Positions 2,546-9,525 of a DNA stretch of 64,000 bases are shown here, one piece after another (the stretch's first letter is position 1; each line of letters starts with the position of its first letter). The notes beneath the pieces were generated by a model that was given only the letters and a program-made list of their open reading frames with translations, had not been told where the DNA came from and did not search any database. The position numbers and the translations under genes are program-made. The DNA is from Desulfomicrobium sp. ZS1 (lineage in GTDB: Bacteria > Desulfobacterota > Desulfovibrionia > Desulfovibrionales > Desulfomicrobiaceae): contig NZ_CP100351.1 of assembly GCF_024204645.1 (NCBI RefSeq), forward strand, positions 2,356,001 to 2,420,000, in the 5' to 3' direction.

Positions 2546-2932
2546 CATCAAAAAATTCTCCCAGCGCTATTCCCAGCACCCACCCCAATTTTGCCCCAAT
2601 TTTCCGGCGACACGAACCTAGTATTCCATGCCGATCCACAGGATATAGCCTCCAGCGTAGTTTACACCCCGCCTCGTGCCTTGCAAAAAATAATTCACAG
2701 TCAATAACCTCGTTTTTTCACAAAGTTTGCCACCGGCACTGTCCGGATCCCTGTTGTTTCGCGCAAAACTTATCAATTATCTTCATATCTCATTTTTTTA
2801 TTGCATCTTGTCTGCTCATGCCTACTTTTGCTTTCCACAGAGAATCATATGCATTTCATTTCTTTGTAGAAAGTTAATTTTTTGAATACTGTACCAATTT
2901 AGTCTGATTTTTGTACCAGATTTAACGAGTCC
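2546..2932. other. Intergenic region upstream of the molybdoenzyme gene
   Basis: No convincing gene is visible. The second half is AT-rich and should carry the promoter of the gene at 2943. Two direct GTACCA repeats near its right end are listed separately. Confidence 0.6.
2891..2923 (+). promoter_or_regulatory. Direct GTACCA repeats before the molybdoenzyme gene
   Basis: GTACCA at 2891-2896 and again at 2913-2918, each followed by an AT-rich run, are spaced 22 bases apart, close to two helical turns. They lie 25-50 bases before the start codon. The spacing suits a dimeric regulator, but no known motif is recognised. Confidence 0.3.
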
Positions 2933-2942
2933 GGAGGGAACT

Positions 2943-5729
2943 ATGAAAGAGCACTCAAGAGCAGATATGGCTGTTGTCTATCGATTTTTTTCCACACTTC
3001 TACGCGATGAAGTGCCTGCAATTGCCGTGACGAGCATCGCATCCCAGGCCCTTGAAACCCGGCTCTTGTCTGAAGGCGGGAACGGCGCCCTGCACGGATC
3101 GATTCTTCGCCTCGTGACCTGTTCACGGGACAAGGCTATTTCCGACCGATATGCCGAGCTGCGCTACGAGTATGCGGACCTGTTTCTGAACGCGGGCTCA
3201 AATCCAGTTTTTCCATATGAATCTGTTCATCGCACCAAGACGCCCGTTGTGCAGCAGCAGCCCGTTTTTGATCTTCGGGCAACCTTGCGCGCTTTTGGAG
3301 TGCATGTTGATCTGGAGTTCCGTGATCTGGAGGACCATATTGCGGTGGAGCTTGATGTATGCGCCCACCTTCTGGAGAAGGGCGACATGGAGGGATATGC
3401 TTCGTTTTTCACGCAGACGCTCCTGCCATGGGCACCACAATTTTGCGAACAATTGAGTTCCTGCGCCCAGGACCCCTGGTACCAGGAGCTTGGGCATGCC
3501 TGCGGCGCTTTTTTGGATTGCGCGCGCCTGACGCTTGAAGACGCGGCCGAACCCACTCCGTGCGTGACGCTGGCAGAGGGTTTGCGCCATGCGGGCTTCC
3601 CTTTCGGGCCGAGCCTCATCAAGGCTGGAGCCATTCAGGCCTCTGAGGATCGGGAGATTCCCACCCATTGCTACACTTGCGGCGCCTTGTGCGGCATGAC
3701 CGCCAAAGTAAAAGACGGCATCCTGACCGGCGTGTCCGGATTGCAGGGAGATCCAAAGAGTGGCGGGCGGCTTTGTCCCAAGGGCGGTTCATCGCCCAAA
3801 CACATCTACAGCGCCTATCGCCTCAAGGCTCCGTTGGTCCGTGAGAACGGCCGTTTTCGCAAAGCGGGCTGGGACGAGGCTCTGGATCTTGTCGCCTCCA
3901 AGATGGCTGGTGTACCCGAAGGCAAGTTGGCCTATTTTCGCGGCAATGATTTTGCCAATTTCGTGCACGAGGCCTTTTTTGAGTATCTCGGCTGTCCCAA
4001 AGGCACGCACCGTACCATGTGCGACAATTCCAACCGTATGGCCAATGAGCACAACTTGAGCGACAAACGGCCCTGGATCAATTACGACGAGTCGGATTAC
4101 ATAATTCTCTTCGGCAACAACGAGCTGGCCACTTCATACGGTCAGCGCAAGACGGCTGCTTTCAAGAAGGCCCTGGATCGGGGCGCTAAGCTGGTCGTCT
4201 TCGATCCGCGCAAGTCCGAAACGGCGGCCAAAGCCTCGGAATGGCTGTCCATAGTTCCCGGAACCGACGGTGCTGCGGCCATGGGCATGGCTTACGTGAT
4301 CATCACCGAGGAATTGTACGACAAGGATTTCGTGTCCAGGTGGACCACCGGCTTTGAGGAGTTCCGCGCCCGCGTCACGGGCGATGAGGACAACGTGGCC
4401 CGTACGCCGCAGTGGGCCGAGGCCATCTGCGGCATCCCCGCCGAAACCCTGACCCGCATCGCCCGTGAATTCGCTTCGGCCAAAGCCAAGGGTGCGCTGT
4501 CCTGGACCGGGCTTGCGCAGACGCCAAACGCGCACTGGTCCACGGCGGCCATTCAGGCCTTGAACGGCTTGTGCGGAACGTTCGACGCCCCTGGCGGTCC
4601 GAGTCTGCCGTTCAAGCGTAAACTCGGTTCAGCTTGGCGCGACGGGCAGAAAAAGCCCGAAAAGAAGGCCGCGCCCAAAGTCGACTCCTTCCTGCTCTGG
4701 TCCGGCTGGTCCCCGGCCAAGTTCGAGGATCAGGTCCGCGACGGCAGGATAAAGGCGCTCTTTTCCTATTGGGCCGATCCGGTGCTGACCTGGGGCAACA
4801 GCGAGTCCGTGGCCCGTGGGCTTGAAATGCTTGATTTTTGCGTGACCGTTGACGCTTTTATGTGCAACACCGCGCTCTACAGCGACGTTGTGCTGCCCGA
4901 TGCGACCTGGCTTGAACAGGCTCAGGTCAAGCCGGACTGGCTTTACGAAGCGTTTTTGAGTTATTTTGCCGAGGTAGTGCCTCCCATGTACGACACCCGT
5001 CCGATGTACGGGATCATCAAGGGTCTGGCGGAGCGTATGGACGTGGCCGACGCAGCGCCGTGGCAGAATATGGAAGAGGCGTTCGCCAACCAGATGCGCG
5101 ATCTGCCATGGAACTTCGAGGAACTGCGTGAAAAGGGCTTCGTCATCACCGATGAAGCCGAGTATTACAAATACAGGAAATGGGAGAGCATCAATCCTCC
5201 CGCAGGATACGGCAGTTCCGGGTCCAGCAGGACCGGAAAATACAACTTCCTCAATCCCGTCAGTGCAGAAAAGGGCGTGGACCCTCTGCCCGACTTCAAG
5301 CCAATCGATCAGGAGCTGCGGCCGGACAGCGAGTATCCTTTTCTGTTCGGAAACATCCGCCTTCTGCAGCACGAACACTGTTCGACCTTCAACAATTTTC
5401 AACTGATGAAGCTCAAAAAGACCAATACGCTTTTGATCAACACCGCCGATGCCGCAACGCACGGTATTTCGAGCGGGGATCTCGTTCAATTGTCCTCGCC
5501 CTGGGGCGTCACGCGTATCAAGGCCGAGGTCACCGATGATATCCGTCCAGGTGTCCTGGCGGCGGCCGGAGGCTACGGTCATGTGCGCGGTCTGGAAGGC
5601 GATCCCAAATATCCCGACATGGGCGGAGTCAACGTGCCCGGCGCTCTGATGCCCACGAACTGCACTGAGTCTACGGGCGGAACTCCGCTGCTCAAGTACA
5701 TCAAGGCAAAGGTGGAGCGGGCCGCCTAG
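2943..5729 (+). CDS. TorD-like chaperone / molybdopterin oxidoreductase fusion
   Basis: A 928-residue protein with two parts. Residues ~1-225 resemble the TorD/DmsD maturation chaperone family, with the family-like block LEFRDLEDHIAVEL near residue 120. Residues ~238-925 are a molybdopterin oxidoreductase of the DMSO reductase family. The [4Fe-4S] ligands are Cys243-x2-Cys246-x3-Cys250-x27-Cys278. Cys360 in TMCDNSNR is a candidate Mo ligand. The C-terminal molydopterin dinucleotide-binding domain is complete. No twin-arginine signal or membrane segment is seen, so it should be cytoplasmic. GGAGGG precedes ATG 2943, and a strong terminator follows. No electron-transfer subunit lies beside it, so the substrate is unknown. 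Chaperone and client are usually separate genes. Confidence 0.88.
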   Translation: MKEHSRADMAVVYRFFSTLLRDEVPAIAVTSIASQALETRLLSEGGNGALHGSILRLVTCSRDKAISDRYAELRYEYADLFLNAGSNPVFPYESVHRTKTPVVQQQPVFDLRATLRAFGVHVDLEFRDLEDHIAVELDVCAHLLEKGDMEGYASFFTQTLLPWAPQFCEQLSSCAQDPWYQELGHACGAFLDCARLTLEDAAEPTPCVTLAEGLRHAGFPFGPSLIKAGAIQASEDREIPTHCYTCGALCGMTAKVKDGILTGVSGLQGDPKSGGRLCPKGGSSPKHIYSAYRLKAPLVRENGRFRKAGWDEALDLVASKMAGVPEGKLAYFRGNDFANFVHEAFFEYLGCPKGTHRTMCDNSNRMANEHNLSDKRPWINYDESDYIILFGNNELATSYGQRKTAAFKKALDRGAKLVVFDPRKSETAAKASEWLSIVPGTDGAAAMGMAYVIITEELYDKDFVSRWTTGFEEFRARVTGDEDNVARTPQWAEAICGIPAETLTRIAREFASAKAKGALSWTGLAQTPNAHWSTAAIQALNGLCGTFDAPGGPSLPFKRKLGSAWRDGQKKPEKKAAPKVDSFLLWSGWSPAKFEDQVRDGRIKALFSYWADPVLTWGNSESVARGLEMLDFCVTVDAFMCNTALYSDVVLPDATWLEQAQVKPDWLYEAFLSYFAEVVPPMYDTRPMYGIIKGLAERMDVADAAPWQNMEEAFANQMRDLPWNFEELREKGFVITDEAEYYKYRKWESINPPAGYGSSGSSRTGKYNFLNPVSAEKGVDPLPDFKPIDQELRPDSEYPFLFGNIRLLQHEHCSTFNNFQLMKLKKTNTLLINTADAATHGISSGDLVQLSSPWGVTRIKAEVTDDIRPGVLAAAGGYGHVRGLEGDPKYPDMGGVNVPGALMPTNCTESTGGTPLLKYIKAKVERAA

Positions 5730-5744
5730 AATTCTCCCCTCCCA

Positions 5745-5795
5745 AAAGGCGAAAGCCCTCGGACAGATTGGCTGTCCGGGGCTTTCGCCTTTTTA
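5745..5795 (+). terminator. Strong terminator of the molybdoenzyme gene
   Basis: A long hairpin: AAAAGGCGAAAGCCC pairs with GGGCTTTCGCCTTTT around CGGACAG/CTGTCCG, ending in a T-run. It starts 15 bases after the stop codon. Confidence 0.9.
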
Positions 5796-5939
5796 GTTGA
5801 AGAGCACGTACAGCGCCGTCCGCATCTCCGGTTAAAAATGCTCATCCTTGTCCAGGAACTCAAGTTATCGCTTCACGCCGTCACAAACCTCGGAGCCCCT
5901 GCCGATCGCCCAAAGCTTTGCGCCGTGATGCACTTTCCA

Positions 5940-6077
5940 TCAGTCTTCCTCACGCACGAAACTGATGTCGTCGAGATCAAAAAGCATGACGCTGCCGTCT
6001 TCGAAAAGACCGGAGGCAACTTGTTTTAAAAAATCCAACCAGTCATCGTATTCCCCATCCTGCGCAGCCGAACCCAT
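5940..6077 (-). CDS. Small acidic hypothetical protein (45 aa)
   Basis: A 45-residue frame beginning MGSAAQDGEYDDWLDFLKQ and ending DLDDISFVREED. It is strongly acidic, with no Cys or membrane segment. The amino-acid pattern (spaced hydrophobics, Asp/Glu-rich end) looks like a real small protein rather than chance. The start is uncertain: GAGGAG lies about 16 bases before the ATG at 6077, farther than ideal. No family is recognised. Confidence 0.4.
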   Translation of the reverse strand: MGSAAQDGEYDDWLDFLKQVASGLFEDGSVMLFDLDDISFVREED

Positions 6078-6658
6078 CCTCGCTTCAAATTTTCTCCTCG
6101 TGATTTCAGCCTACTCATTTCGCGCCACCATGCCCTTCCACGGCTGTAATTCATTTTTTTTCAAGCTCTACGAGTTCAATGCCCTTGCGGAGTTGGGAAC
6201 TGCGCAGCAACAGTCATGCACCGAGAAGTGATAGGGCGTAACGAAATGGCTCTGTGACCGAGAGCAGTACCTCCATATTATTATCCAAAAATATGTTTTA
6301 ATTGTAAATAGTTAAATGATAATTGCAAATGTACTGCTCTACTCATGTCGAAAAAATTCAGGATGTAATTGTGTATATGATTGTCGAATAAAATACTGCA
6401 TTACCCCTATTTTTGAGTCTTTATTCGATTTTTAGCTGAATAATCCCCTGCGGTGTGCTACAAAGACTACTTATGAAGAGACGGGTGACTGTAAGCATTT
6501 TTGTCTGAATAAATTATTTTGCTCGCCGGCTTGTGCTGAGATTTTGACAAAGTCCACGGGTCTGGCACTATCGGCAACCCGTGTCAGAGGGCTGCATCCG
6601 AACCATAGCGGTCGCAGTCGAAGGAAAACAACACAACATCTCAAGATATGGGAGAAAC
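6078..6658. other. AT-rich intergenic region before the glycosyltransferase
   Basis: No gene-like frame is seen. The stretch around 6280-6450 is very AT-rich. The last 100 bases return to higher G+C and include the leader of the glycosyltransferase. Confidence 0.55.
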
Positions 6659-8023
6659 ATGCGCATCCTTTTTGTACACATGAATTTTCCGGCCCAGTTC
6701 CGGAGCCTGGCCAGTTTTTTGGGACGCGATTCCCGAAACGAGGTCGTCTTCGCCACCATGAACGAAAACCCAGGGTGGGACATACCCGGGGTGCGCAAGG
6801 CCGTATTCGATCCCGACGCCACGGTGTTTCCTGAAGGGCATGGGATAAACGCAAAATTTTGGGCGGCCTCCAGCAAGGCCTCCGGGGCCTTGAAGCTGGC
6901 GGTGGAATTGCGGCGCCAAGGGTTCGTGCCGGATATCATCTGCGGGCACTCAGGCTGGGGACCGACCATGTATCTGCGCGATGTCTTTCCCGAGGCGGCC
7001 TTTGTCGGCTACTTTGAATGGTTTTACGATGCCCAGAGCGCGGACATGCGCTTTTCCGGCAGCCCGTTATCGCTTAGTTCGCGCATGGAAGTGCGATGCA
7101 ACAACATCCCCATTCTCATGGATCTGGCCAGTTGTGCCCATGGAATTTGTCCGACGCGCTGGCAATTGGAACAATTTCCTGCGGAGTTCCGATCAAAGAT
7201 TTCCGTGATCCACGACGGAGTGGATACGGATTATTTTTCTCCCGACCCAGAGGCCCGGATGGTTCTGCCCGATCTTGATCTTTCCGGCGCCACGGAAATC
7301 GTGACCTATGCCACGCGAGGAATGGAGCCTTACCGGGGTTTTCCGCAGTTTCTTGAGGCTGCCGTGGACGTGGTCAAGAAGCGGCCCGGATGTCATGTCG
7401 TCATTGGAGGCAATGACGGTTGCCATTATGGTTCTCCTCCCGAACCGGGCAAGACCTGGAAGGAGGTCCTCACCGAGCGACTGCAACCCGATCCGGAGCA
7501 CATCCATTTCGTAGGCCCACTGCCTTACAGACATTACCGCACACTGCTGCGGGCCTCGACGGCGCACGTCTACCTGACACGCCCCTTTGTCCTCTCCTGG
7601 TCGTTCCTGGAAGCGCTGTCCTGCGGCTGCCTGGTGGTGGCCTCCGACACCGAACCAGTGCGCGAAATGGCCAGCGATGGGCACAATGCCCTCTTCACGG
7701 ATATACGTTCGCCCGCCGCCATCACCGAACGAATACTGGAAGCCCTGGAGAATCGCAGCCAGCTGGACGGAGTGCGCAAACAGGCCAGACAGACCGTGCT
7801 GGAACGTTATGATGTGCGCAAGCTCCTTCCCCAGCAGCTGGAACCTGAATCCGTGAATAAGTGTTGCCAACGTTGTTGGCTCGAAATTTCAACCATATTT
7901 TTCGAAAATTCAGGCGACTTTCGACCTGAAAATTTTCAACTGAAGGACAATTGTCGCTTCGCAAGCTCCGAGAACCGACTTTTTGCAGTTTTCAGACGCA
8001 CTACTCCTAGGAATGCAGCCTAA
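6659..8023 (+). CDS. Family-4-type glycosyltransferase, C-terminus altered by IS insertion
   Basis: A GT-B fold glycosyltransferase. It starts MRILFVHMNFPAQF at ATG 6659, preceded by GGGAG; an upstream in-frame start at 6581 gives an unrelated leader. Residues ~185-395 hold the Glycos_transf_1 domain, with the nucleotide-sugar region SFLEALSCGCLVVASDTEPVRE. Normal coding ends at Glu395 (7843), where an IS element begins. Translation then runs into IS DNA for 59 extra residues to a stop at 8023. Joining the flanks restores a frame ending VLRSVTRK and TGA at 9556-9558 (403 residues). The catalytic domains are complete, so the product may still work. Substrate is unknown. Confidence 0.85.
   Translation: MRILFVHMNFPAQFRSLASFLGRDSRNEVVFATMNENPGWDIPGVRKAVFDPDATVFPEGHGINAKFWAASSKASGALKLAVELRRQGFVPDIICGHSGWGPTMYLRDVFPEAAFVGYFEWFYDAQSADMRFSGSPLSLSSRMEVRCNNIPILMDLASCAHGICPTRWQLEQFPAEFRSKISVIHDGVDTDYFSPDPEARMVLPDLDLSGATEIVTYATRGMEPYRGFPQFLEAAVDVVKKRPGCHVVIGGNDGCHYGSPPEPGKTWKEVLTERLQPDPEHIHFVGPLPYRHYRTLLRASTAHVYLTRPFVLSWSFLEALSCGCLVVASDTEPVREMASDGHNALFTDIRSPAAITERILEALENRSQLDGVRKQARQTVLERYDVRKLLPQQLEPESVNKCCQRCWLEISTIFFENSGDFRPENFQLKDNCRFASSENRLFAVFRRTTPRNAA
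7838..7843 (+). repeat. Left target-site duplication CTGGAA
   Basis: Matches 9526-9531 exactly. Removing the IS and one copy restores the glycosyltransferase reading frame through to its own stop. Confidence 0.85.
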
Positions 8024-9525
8024 TGACCATCTCGTTACGCCGTCTTGAGACGATAGAACAGGTCAGAGACCACCTTGAACCATGGCTCCGGGCAGGAGAC
8101 ATGCAGGATTACCTTGCGTGCATGGCGGGTGATCCGGGCGCAAATGCTCATCATGCTCCGCATGACCGTCTTGGTTCTTCGGCGGTTGGCTTTTTTCAGT
8201 CCCAGCATCCGAGCCACAACCAAGTCCACGGAGGCTACCCGAAGCATGTTGTAGACCAGCATGCCCAAGCGCAGGAAGGCGGCATTCACGGCAAACTTGC
8301 CCGACGGCAGGCGTTCCATGTCCATCTCGGTCTTGAATTCCCCGTGATACTGCTCGCTGGTGCCCCGCTTGCGATACAGTTTCAAAGCCTGGTCGGCATC
8401 AAATTCCAGGTTAGTCCACAATACGCAGACGCGGACCTCTGGAATCATCATGAACACACCGTCCTTGCTCAACACTTCCGTGACCTCGAAAATCTGGCGG
8501 ACCGGACTTTTCTTCTTGCCAAGCTCACGCATCACGAAGCCTCGGTAGATTCGGCCTTTTTCTCGGGACGTTGCGAAATTCTCTACTTTCTGCGCGTGCT
8601 CCTTGGCAGTAGCGAGCCAGCCGGTCACCGGTTCCCTGCGCAGATTGTGCTTGATGATGAAGCCGGTGCGCGACTGCGTGCACAGCGTCTCCAGACGCTC
8701 CTTGCTGTCAAATCCGCTGTCGGCGACCACGAGAACGTTCGCTTCCACCATGGACTTGGCGTACCCGAGGCTCTCCAGGATGAACTCATCCGTGCCCTCG
8801 CAACTGGAATGGCTCGATCCGGGACGAAGCTTGCCGTTGACCATCCAGCCGCCACCAAGATGAGCAAAGATCGGAGCGAAGCCGAATCTCTTGTCGTACG
8901 CTGCGCTGGCACCTTCCTTCTCGGTGTCGGCGTTGTCGAAAATGCTGACGTCGATATCAAGGCGCACCCAGTGCTCTTTCTTGTTGTCGTCCCTGGTCAT
9001 ATCAATGATCTCAGGCTGCATTCCGGTCTTCTTCCACAGTTCGACCGAGCAACGGGGCAACTGGGCATCCAGGTCAGTTTCCAAGGCGATCCGCTGAAAC
9101 CGTTGCCGCAAAATCTCGGCGGAAGGAACGCGTCCAAGGCCAAGGCTGGTCGCGAAAAAATCGTCGCCGTAGTATTCACGGACATGGTCGAAATCCGTTT
9201 TGCCTTGGCACATGAGGCCGACCAATGTGCGGAAAATTTCGCGCTCCTTGATCTGCGGAGCTTTTCCAGGCCCAAGACGGTCGACCAGTGTATCCAGCCC
9301 GCAAACCCTGGCCATCTCGCTAATCAGAGCCAGACCGACATGGCCAATGTTGTTTCCTTCGTTTCGTTTGATATCGGTGATGAGCATTGCAAACTCCTGT
9401 CGCACCCAATGGGTGCTAAAAATCATTCAGGAAAAGCAAGTTCAATATACCGATATCATTGATTTATTTCAAGTGTAAAATGTTTCAAAACTGTATATTC
9501 AATGCAACTTTTTCACGGATTTAGG
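7844..9525 (-). mobile_element. IS1380-family insertion sequence, 1682 bp
   Basis: The terminal inverted repeats begin CCTGAATCCGTGAA on the left (7844) and CCTAAATCCGTGAA on the right (complement from 9525), similar over about 20 bases. CCT ends are typical of IS1380/ISEcp1 relatives. The element is flanked by a 6-bp direct repeat CTGGAA (7838-7843 and 9526-9531). It holds one full transposase. The exact target duplication and intact transposase point to a fairly recent insertion. Confidence 0.9.
8035..9387 (-). CDS. IS1380-family DDE transposase
   Basis: A 450-residue transposase of the DDE group-1 type. It begins MLITDIKRNEGNN at ATG 9387, with AGGAG 6 bases upstream; a longer frame from 9426 lacks such a site. 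It contains the expected VVADSGFDS block with a catalytic Asp, and GTSEQYHGEFKTEMDMERLP near the C-terminus with the catalytic Glu region. No frameshift is visible, so it looks functional. Confidence 0.92.
   Translation of the reverse strand: MLITDIKRNEGNNIGHVGLALISEMARVCGLDTLVDRLGPGKAPQIKEREIFRTLVGLMCQGKTDFDHVREYYGDDFFATSLGLGRVPSAEILRQRFQRIALETDLDAQLPRCSVELWKKTGMQPEIIDMTRDDNKKEHWVRLDIDVSIFDNADTEKEGASAAYDKRFGFAPIFAHLGGGWMVNGKLRPGSSHSSCEGTDEFILESLGYAKSMVEANVLVVADSGFDSKERLETLCTQSRTGFIIKHNLRREPVTGWLATAKEHAQKVENFATSREKGRIYRGFVMRELGKKKSPVRQIFEVTEVLSKDGVFMMIPEVRVCVLWTNLEFDADQALKLYRKRGTSEQYHGEFKTEMDMERLPSGKFAVNAAFLRLGMLVYNMLRVASVDLVVARMLGLKKANRRRTKTVMRSMMSICARITRHARKVILHVSCPEPWFKVVSDLFYRLKTA

Follow-up and report, generated by a model that had tools for sequence, protein, structure and literature searches.

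A gene in the window, the whole 64,000-nucleotide stretch of Desulfomicrobium DNA analysed here, raises the question of what a TorD-type chaperone does when it is built into its own client. The part that TorD/NarJ-type proteins play in inserting the bis-pterin cofactor, and whether they need to leave afterwards, are difficult questions to approach, as the complexes last only briefly. Stand-alone TorD binds the Tat signal of its client as well as a second site on the enzyme core, and it promotes cofactor insertion even without a Tat signal (PMC10609526).

The gene runs on the + strand from an ATG at position 2943 to a stop codon at 5727–5729 and forms a single frame of 928 residues, exactly the extent, frame and length given by an earlier sequence-only reading of the window. 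A ribosome-binding site (GGAGG) lies at 2933–2937 on the same strand. From the N terminus, the protein consists of a TorD/DmsD/YcdY-fold domain (residues 1–232, 2943–3638), a molybdopterin oxidoreductase Fe4S4 domain (PF04879, residues 238–290, 3654–3812), the molybdopterin oxidoreductase catalytic domains (PF00384, residues 293–698, 3819–5036) and a molybdopterin dinucleotide-binding domain (PF01568, residues 803–898, 5349–5636), all encoded on the + strand. The Pfam match to PF02613 covers the core of the first domain (residues 71–169) with an E-value of 5.1e-24 and 85 bits against a cut-off of 22; the three enzyme matches also exceed their cut-offs. A TorD-like block had been placed in the first ~225 residues; Pfam, sequence matches and the structural model confirm the domain but move its end to ~232. 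The protein (2943–5729, + strand) is a chaperone–client fusion, in which a TorD/DmsD-like domain is joined to a complete catalytic subunit of the DMSO reductase superfamily (Mo/W-bisPGD), and the same fusion is present in 50 other sequences of alignment A2.

Among the sequences of solved structures, TorD (1n1c) and DmsD (3u41) are closest to residues 1–235, with E-values of 4e-6 to 7e-6. The model of these residues (pLDDT 92.9) has the all-helical TorD/DmsD fold and can be matched to DmsD (3efp) with TM-scores of 0.68/0.76 and to YcdY (9m26) with 0.64/0.81. The possibility, raised in the sequence-only reading, that the N-terminal part would fail to match a TorD-family fold was thus not borne out. 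The LEDHIAVEL segment, taken there as a TorD/DmsD-like signature, is the E/D-x-D-H block of the TorD family; H132 is present in 50 of 51 alignment rows and D or E at position 131 in all 51. D22, E23, Y77, F81, N83, P88, P91, Y92, S94, W163 and Y180 are invariant in all 51 rows. The domain shares sequence, all-helical fold and conserved motifs with TorD, DmsD, YcdY and NarJ, the NarJ subfamily of REMPs (PF02613). The known members of this subfamily are stand-alone proteins, whereas here the domain is covalently attached to the N terminus of its client, has no Tat signal to bind, and is fused to the enzyme in every member found. The N-terminal part is a domain of the TorD/DmsD/NarJ fold family and not a free chaperone.

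No Tat motif occurs at the N terminus of any of the 51 aligned members, as had been claimed for the window's protein. A hidden N-terminal Tat signal was also considered and rejected, the only RR motifs being chance ones inside the domain in 6 of 51 rows. Because a Tat signal is absent, the enzyme is most likely cytoplasmic, which agrees with the earlier reading. That reading also started from the premise that such chaperones are normally separate proteins that bind a Tat signal. The permanent covalent link is indeed new, but a non-exported client is not new in itself for this chaperone family, since NarJ, which belongs to the same family as TorD, serves the cytoplasmic NarG (PMC4464133).

The enzyme part is closest, among solved structures, to Thermus polysulfide reductase (2vpw, E-value 2.7e-65). 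Cys243, Cys246, Cys250 and Cys278, which had been read as the [4Fe-4S] cysteines and lie in the Fe4S4 domain together with Lys280, are invariant in 51 of 51 homologues. The same holds for Cys360 (codon 4020–4022, + strand), the candidate metal ligand proposed earlier. It lies within an invariant H-R-x-M-C-D-N motif and aligns with the Cys of 'SLC', the metal ligand of 2vpw. The full-length model (pLDDT 86.3) matches enzymes of the DMSO reductase superfamily in structure comparison, and the junction at residues 211–240 is well predicted (pLDDT ~94); its pTM of 0.88 alone says little on how the two parts dock. By its domains and predicted ligand residues, the enzyme is assigned to the DMSO reductase superfamily (Mo/W-bisPGD).

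Its place within the superfamily was compared with three known types. Like PsrA/PhsA (2vpw), the enzyme has a [4Fe-4S] cluster, bis-PGD and a Cys ligand as predicted features. PsrA/PhsA enzymes are exported and have B and C subunits as partners, whereas the fused family lacks the Tat signal and, in the window, has no B or C genes beside it. The score against the curated NCBIfam PhsA equivalog is 269 bits, below the cut-off of 694. The FdhA score of 243 is also below its cut-off of 666, and the formate dehydrogenase mark, Cys or Sec followed by His, is absent, with Cys360-Asp361 in 51 of 51 rows. Acetylene hydratase (2e7z), the fourth-best solved relative, is likewise a single subunit with one [4Fe-4S] cluster and the same domain order, but has no TorD domain and carries an Asp next to the second Fe-S Cys (CQSCDINC), where the fused family has Gly247 (CYTCGALC). 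This Asp has a role in acetylene hydratase. The fused enzyme family appears uncharacterised.

The same fusion is found in four related genomes at 86, 73, 69 and 61% identity. A wider scan, of one genome per species in 84,980 species, used two search patterns, one of them from the enzyme part immediately after the junction, and yielded 59 loci. The record titles name Desulfobacterota groups, or plain Deltaproteobacteria, and once Proteobacteria; the exceptions are three Archaeoglobi loci (L044, L063 and L081). Carriers include sulfate reducers, sulfur disproportionators and cable bacteria. Of these loci, 46 are full-length in alignment A2, come from other species and show 47–70% identity. No unfused family member was found in the scan of 84,980 species, although such members could have turned up, because one pattern lies within the enzyme part. 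In a survey of the phylum, 149 of 395 genomes have a TorD-family match; among the listed matches, at least 11 lie in open frames of 930 residues or more. In at least 10 survey genomes besides the window's own, the match spans nearly all 926 positions of the fusion family model. A mistake of assembly or sequencing that joined two genes, which the sequence-only reading named as a risk alongside its call for a search of related genomes, has a negligible chance of explaining the frame; the fusion recurs in the 46 and 4 other sequences, and more than 50 independent assemblies show the same junction.

In a tree of the enzyme part, all fused members form one clade with 100/100 support on a long stem, the nearest unfused relatives have ~31% identity, and the Archaeoglobi members nest among Desulfobacterota. 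The simplest reading is one old fusion that spread by descent and transfer; the fusion is about as old as its enzyme family. Loci L008–L013, which adjoin the same type of TauE permease, were examined as an unfused sister group and rejected; they fall outside the fused clade and group with PsrA-like enzymes. Independent TorD fusions elsewhere in the survey were also rejected, as the long frames of G115 and G410 look like a separate TorD with a chance upstream open frame and adjoin ordinary Mo-enzyme genes. G115 has one further long frame with a TorD match, of 786 residues. The search for virus-borne copies gave one pattern match and no relative, and that for plasmid copies gave no close match; one E. 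coli plasmid match has 24.7% identity. A degraded copy in genome G002 (contig C76, locus L026, 2085–3537) retains only enzyme residues 262–338 and 580–928. In one MAG (L075, 6337–9145) the fusion is split over four frames, probably by sequencing errors.

Both parts of the protein are under purifying selection, and neither is decaying. A comparison of the window with G013 gives dN/dS values of 0.22 (TorD part) and 0.09 (enzyme part). Pairwise identity averages 45% for the former against 65% for the latter, and the pairwise distances of the two parts correlate with r = 0.83 (1275 pairs). The lower conservation of the TorD part would also fit a scaffold role.

We consider it probable that this Mo/W-bisPGD oxidoreductase works in the cytoplasm and has its own maturation chaperone attached in cis. 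The TorD/DmsD-like domain would take the place of the Tat signal found in exported relatives. During insertion of the large bis-pterin cofactor, it most likely prevents the folding catalytic domain from closing, and it would stay attached after loading instead of leaving. Export proofreading would have been dropped, since there is no Tat signal, and the core-binding and insertion role could remain because the domain sits where that signal would be. Once mature, the enzyme would contain one [4Fe-4S] cluster and a metal bound by Cys; its most likely substrate in the cytoplasm is a sulfur compound or small oxyanion, and it would exchange electrons with a soluble partner. We infer the cis-acting insertion and the cytoplasmic site, as well as the substrate class and electron partner considered below. 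The two ideas of the earlier reading, that the fusion may guarantee 1:1 cofactor loading or that the domain may have a new role, likewise stay hypotheses. A further-reaching version, which we regard as rather doubtful, makes the tethered REMP a working part of the mature enzyme, a cofactor gate or reload station that permits loading, and perhaps reloading, without a free chaperone, in a fusion as old as the enzyme family and common to bacteria and archaea.

The faster evolution of the TorD part would fit an unlikely alternative, in which the domain is no longer a chaperone and has become a structural or regulatory part, such as a lid or a surface where a redox partner docks. This would be in line with the finding that every family member found retains the domain in fused form and that most loci encode no electron-transfer subunit alongside. 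The motif residues common to stand-alone TorD and DmsD are nevertheless kept, and the predicted fold is that of DmsD/YcdY; both points speak against this alternative.

Service to other molybdoenzymes in trans, with the fusion merely incidental, is improbable. The fusion does hold the sole TorD/NarJ-family (PF02613) domain in the window's genome, which has ~10 other superfamily matches. Tethering would hinder such service, however; outside the genus the fusion sits in gene clusters of its own, and G013 has a separate TorD next to a Tat-signal enzyme in addition to the fusion. We give as little credit to a non-redox enzyme, hydratase- or transferase-like in the manner of acetylene hydratase and pyrogallol transhydroxylase. 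Acetylene hydratase is cytoplasmic and has no partner subunits, and a reaction of this kind would explain the missing electron partners and suit the high rank of 2e7z among the solved relatives. Against it stand the Gly in place of the Asp of 2e7z and the polysulfide reductase as closest solved relative.

The reading in which the chaperone acts in cis leaves the substrate and electron partner to be guessed from neighbouring genes. No electron-transfer subunit genes adjoin the fusion in the window, as had been noted earlier, but this is only part of the picture in relatives. Outside the genus the fusion has neighbours, which were counted within 6.5 kb of it in 64 loci. Histidine kinases and response regulators each occur in 38 of these loci and a TauE-family permease in 31, while one small membrane protein is encoded in 27 and another in 18. 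The electron partner and substrate, left blank before, are slightly narrowed by the permease and the two-component system of these relatives. TauE proteins, however, form a general family of permeases. The window's genome encodes one at 791–793 kb that is 72% identical to the neighbours in L062 and L079 and adjoins a homologue of the second small membrane protein. This distant gene is weak evidence, since every member of the genus has a TauE homologue, whether or not it carries the fusion, and co-occurrence there is uninformative. As a first and tentative guess, the substrate may be a sulfur oxyanion or related compound, in view of a core that resembles polysulfide reductase, the neighbouring TauE genes and the kinds of host.

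Other arrangements were noted in this survey of neighbours. Loci L090, L091 and L092 (G023, G048 and G040) encode unfused PhsA-like enzymes that lack the N-terminal extension, next to a TauE permease that itself has a long one; these enzymes score 597–608 bits, slightly below the PhsA cut-off of 694. FeS proteins and a 720-residue GltD-like flavoprotein are also encoded in L090 and L092, and the enzyme of L092 adjoins an FeS subunit as well as a flavoprotein of the NAD(P) type. The arrangement in L090 and L092 is possibly an NAD(P)H-linked system. A DUF169 protein adjoins the fusion in L025 (10017–10805) and L084, and a Rex-like repressor of the NADH-sensing type lies directly upstream of it in genome G320 (L095, 7321–8064).

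Each of the two domains is known; the novelty lies in their permanent fusion throughout the family. The architecture is probably already visible as annotation in protein databases. A search of open-licence papers found none that describes a TorD–molybdoenzyme fusion or its neighbours. NarX of mycobacteria includes a NarJ-like part. This 'fused nitrate reductase' is the sole precedent found for fused nitrate reductase parts (PMC7759655), but it belongs to another family, is not a complete catalytic subunit and has no known activity. The MOLY cluster (MolyA, MolyB and MolyC) of sulfur disproportionators likewise pairs a TorD-type chaperone with a molybdopterin oxidoreductase in Desulfobacterota, but its chaperone is encoded by a gene of its own and its enzyme, predicted to be extracellular, has a B subunit (PMC12998232). 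In the window, separate MolyB and MolyC genes are lacking; the chaperone is in the same frame and no B-subunit gene adjoins. A natural covalent chaperone–client pair, conserved in more than 50 species, would permit the complex to be purified and its structure determined, and the lack of a Tat signal makes it possible to test cofactor loading separately from export proofreading. As the enzyme family occurs in sulfate reducers, disproportionators and cable bacteria, its substrate may be relevant to sulfur cycling.

In the window, the fusion is solitary and lies between a tRNA-Arg gene (TCT, 2423–2499, + strand) and a glycosyltransferase-like gene. It is the only clear gene of a ~3.6-kb accessory segment (2559–6194) that begins just downstream of the tRNA. 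The sequences on either side of it align with the sister genome G015 at 96% and 89%, but there ~220 bp take the place of this segment. The fusion is an accessory gene in the genus, since it is missing at this tRNA-Arg site in G015, lies together with ~180 bp of upstream sequence at another genomic place in G013, and is broken in G002. A TorD-family match is present in 12 of 16 genus genomes, mostly as stand-alone frames of 195–240 residues. G013 has both arrangements, the fusion and a separate operon with a stand-alone TorD, a Tat-signal enzyme (RRQFLK), an FeS subunit and a membrane protein, and so offers a clear contrast between fused and ordinary TorD systems.

No direct repeats longer than 10 bases were found at the ends of the inserted segment, and a search for sigma-54 promoters performed no better than chance. 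In G007, G013 and G002 (L109, L110 and L111), the 3′ end of the tRNA-Arg gene and the stem-loop that follows it are present as second copies near the same tRNA. The site looks like an insertion hot spot, and the copies resemble remnants of integrating elements. A DDE-transposase-like frame of 463 residues (8035–9426, − strand) lies at a distance of ~2.3 kb from the fusion gene, in a stretch (~7844–9525) that G015 lacks and that is therefore a recent insertion.
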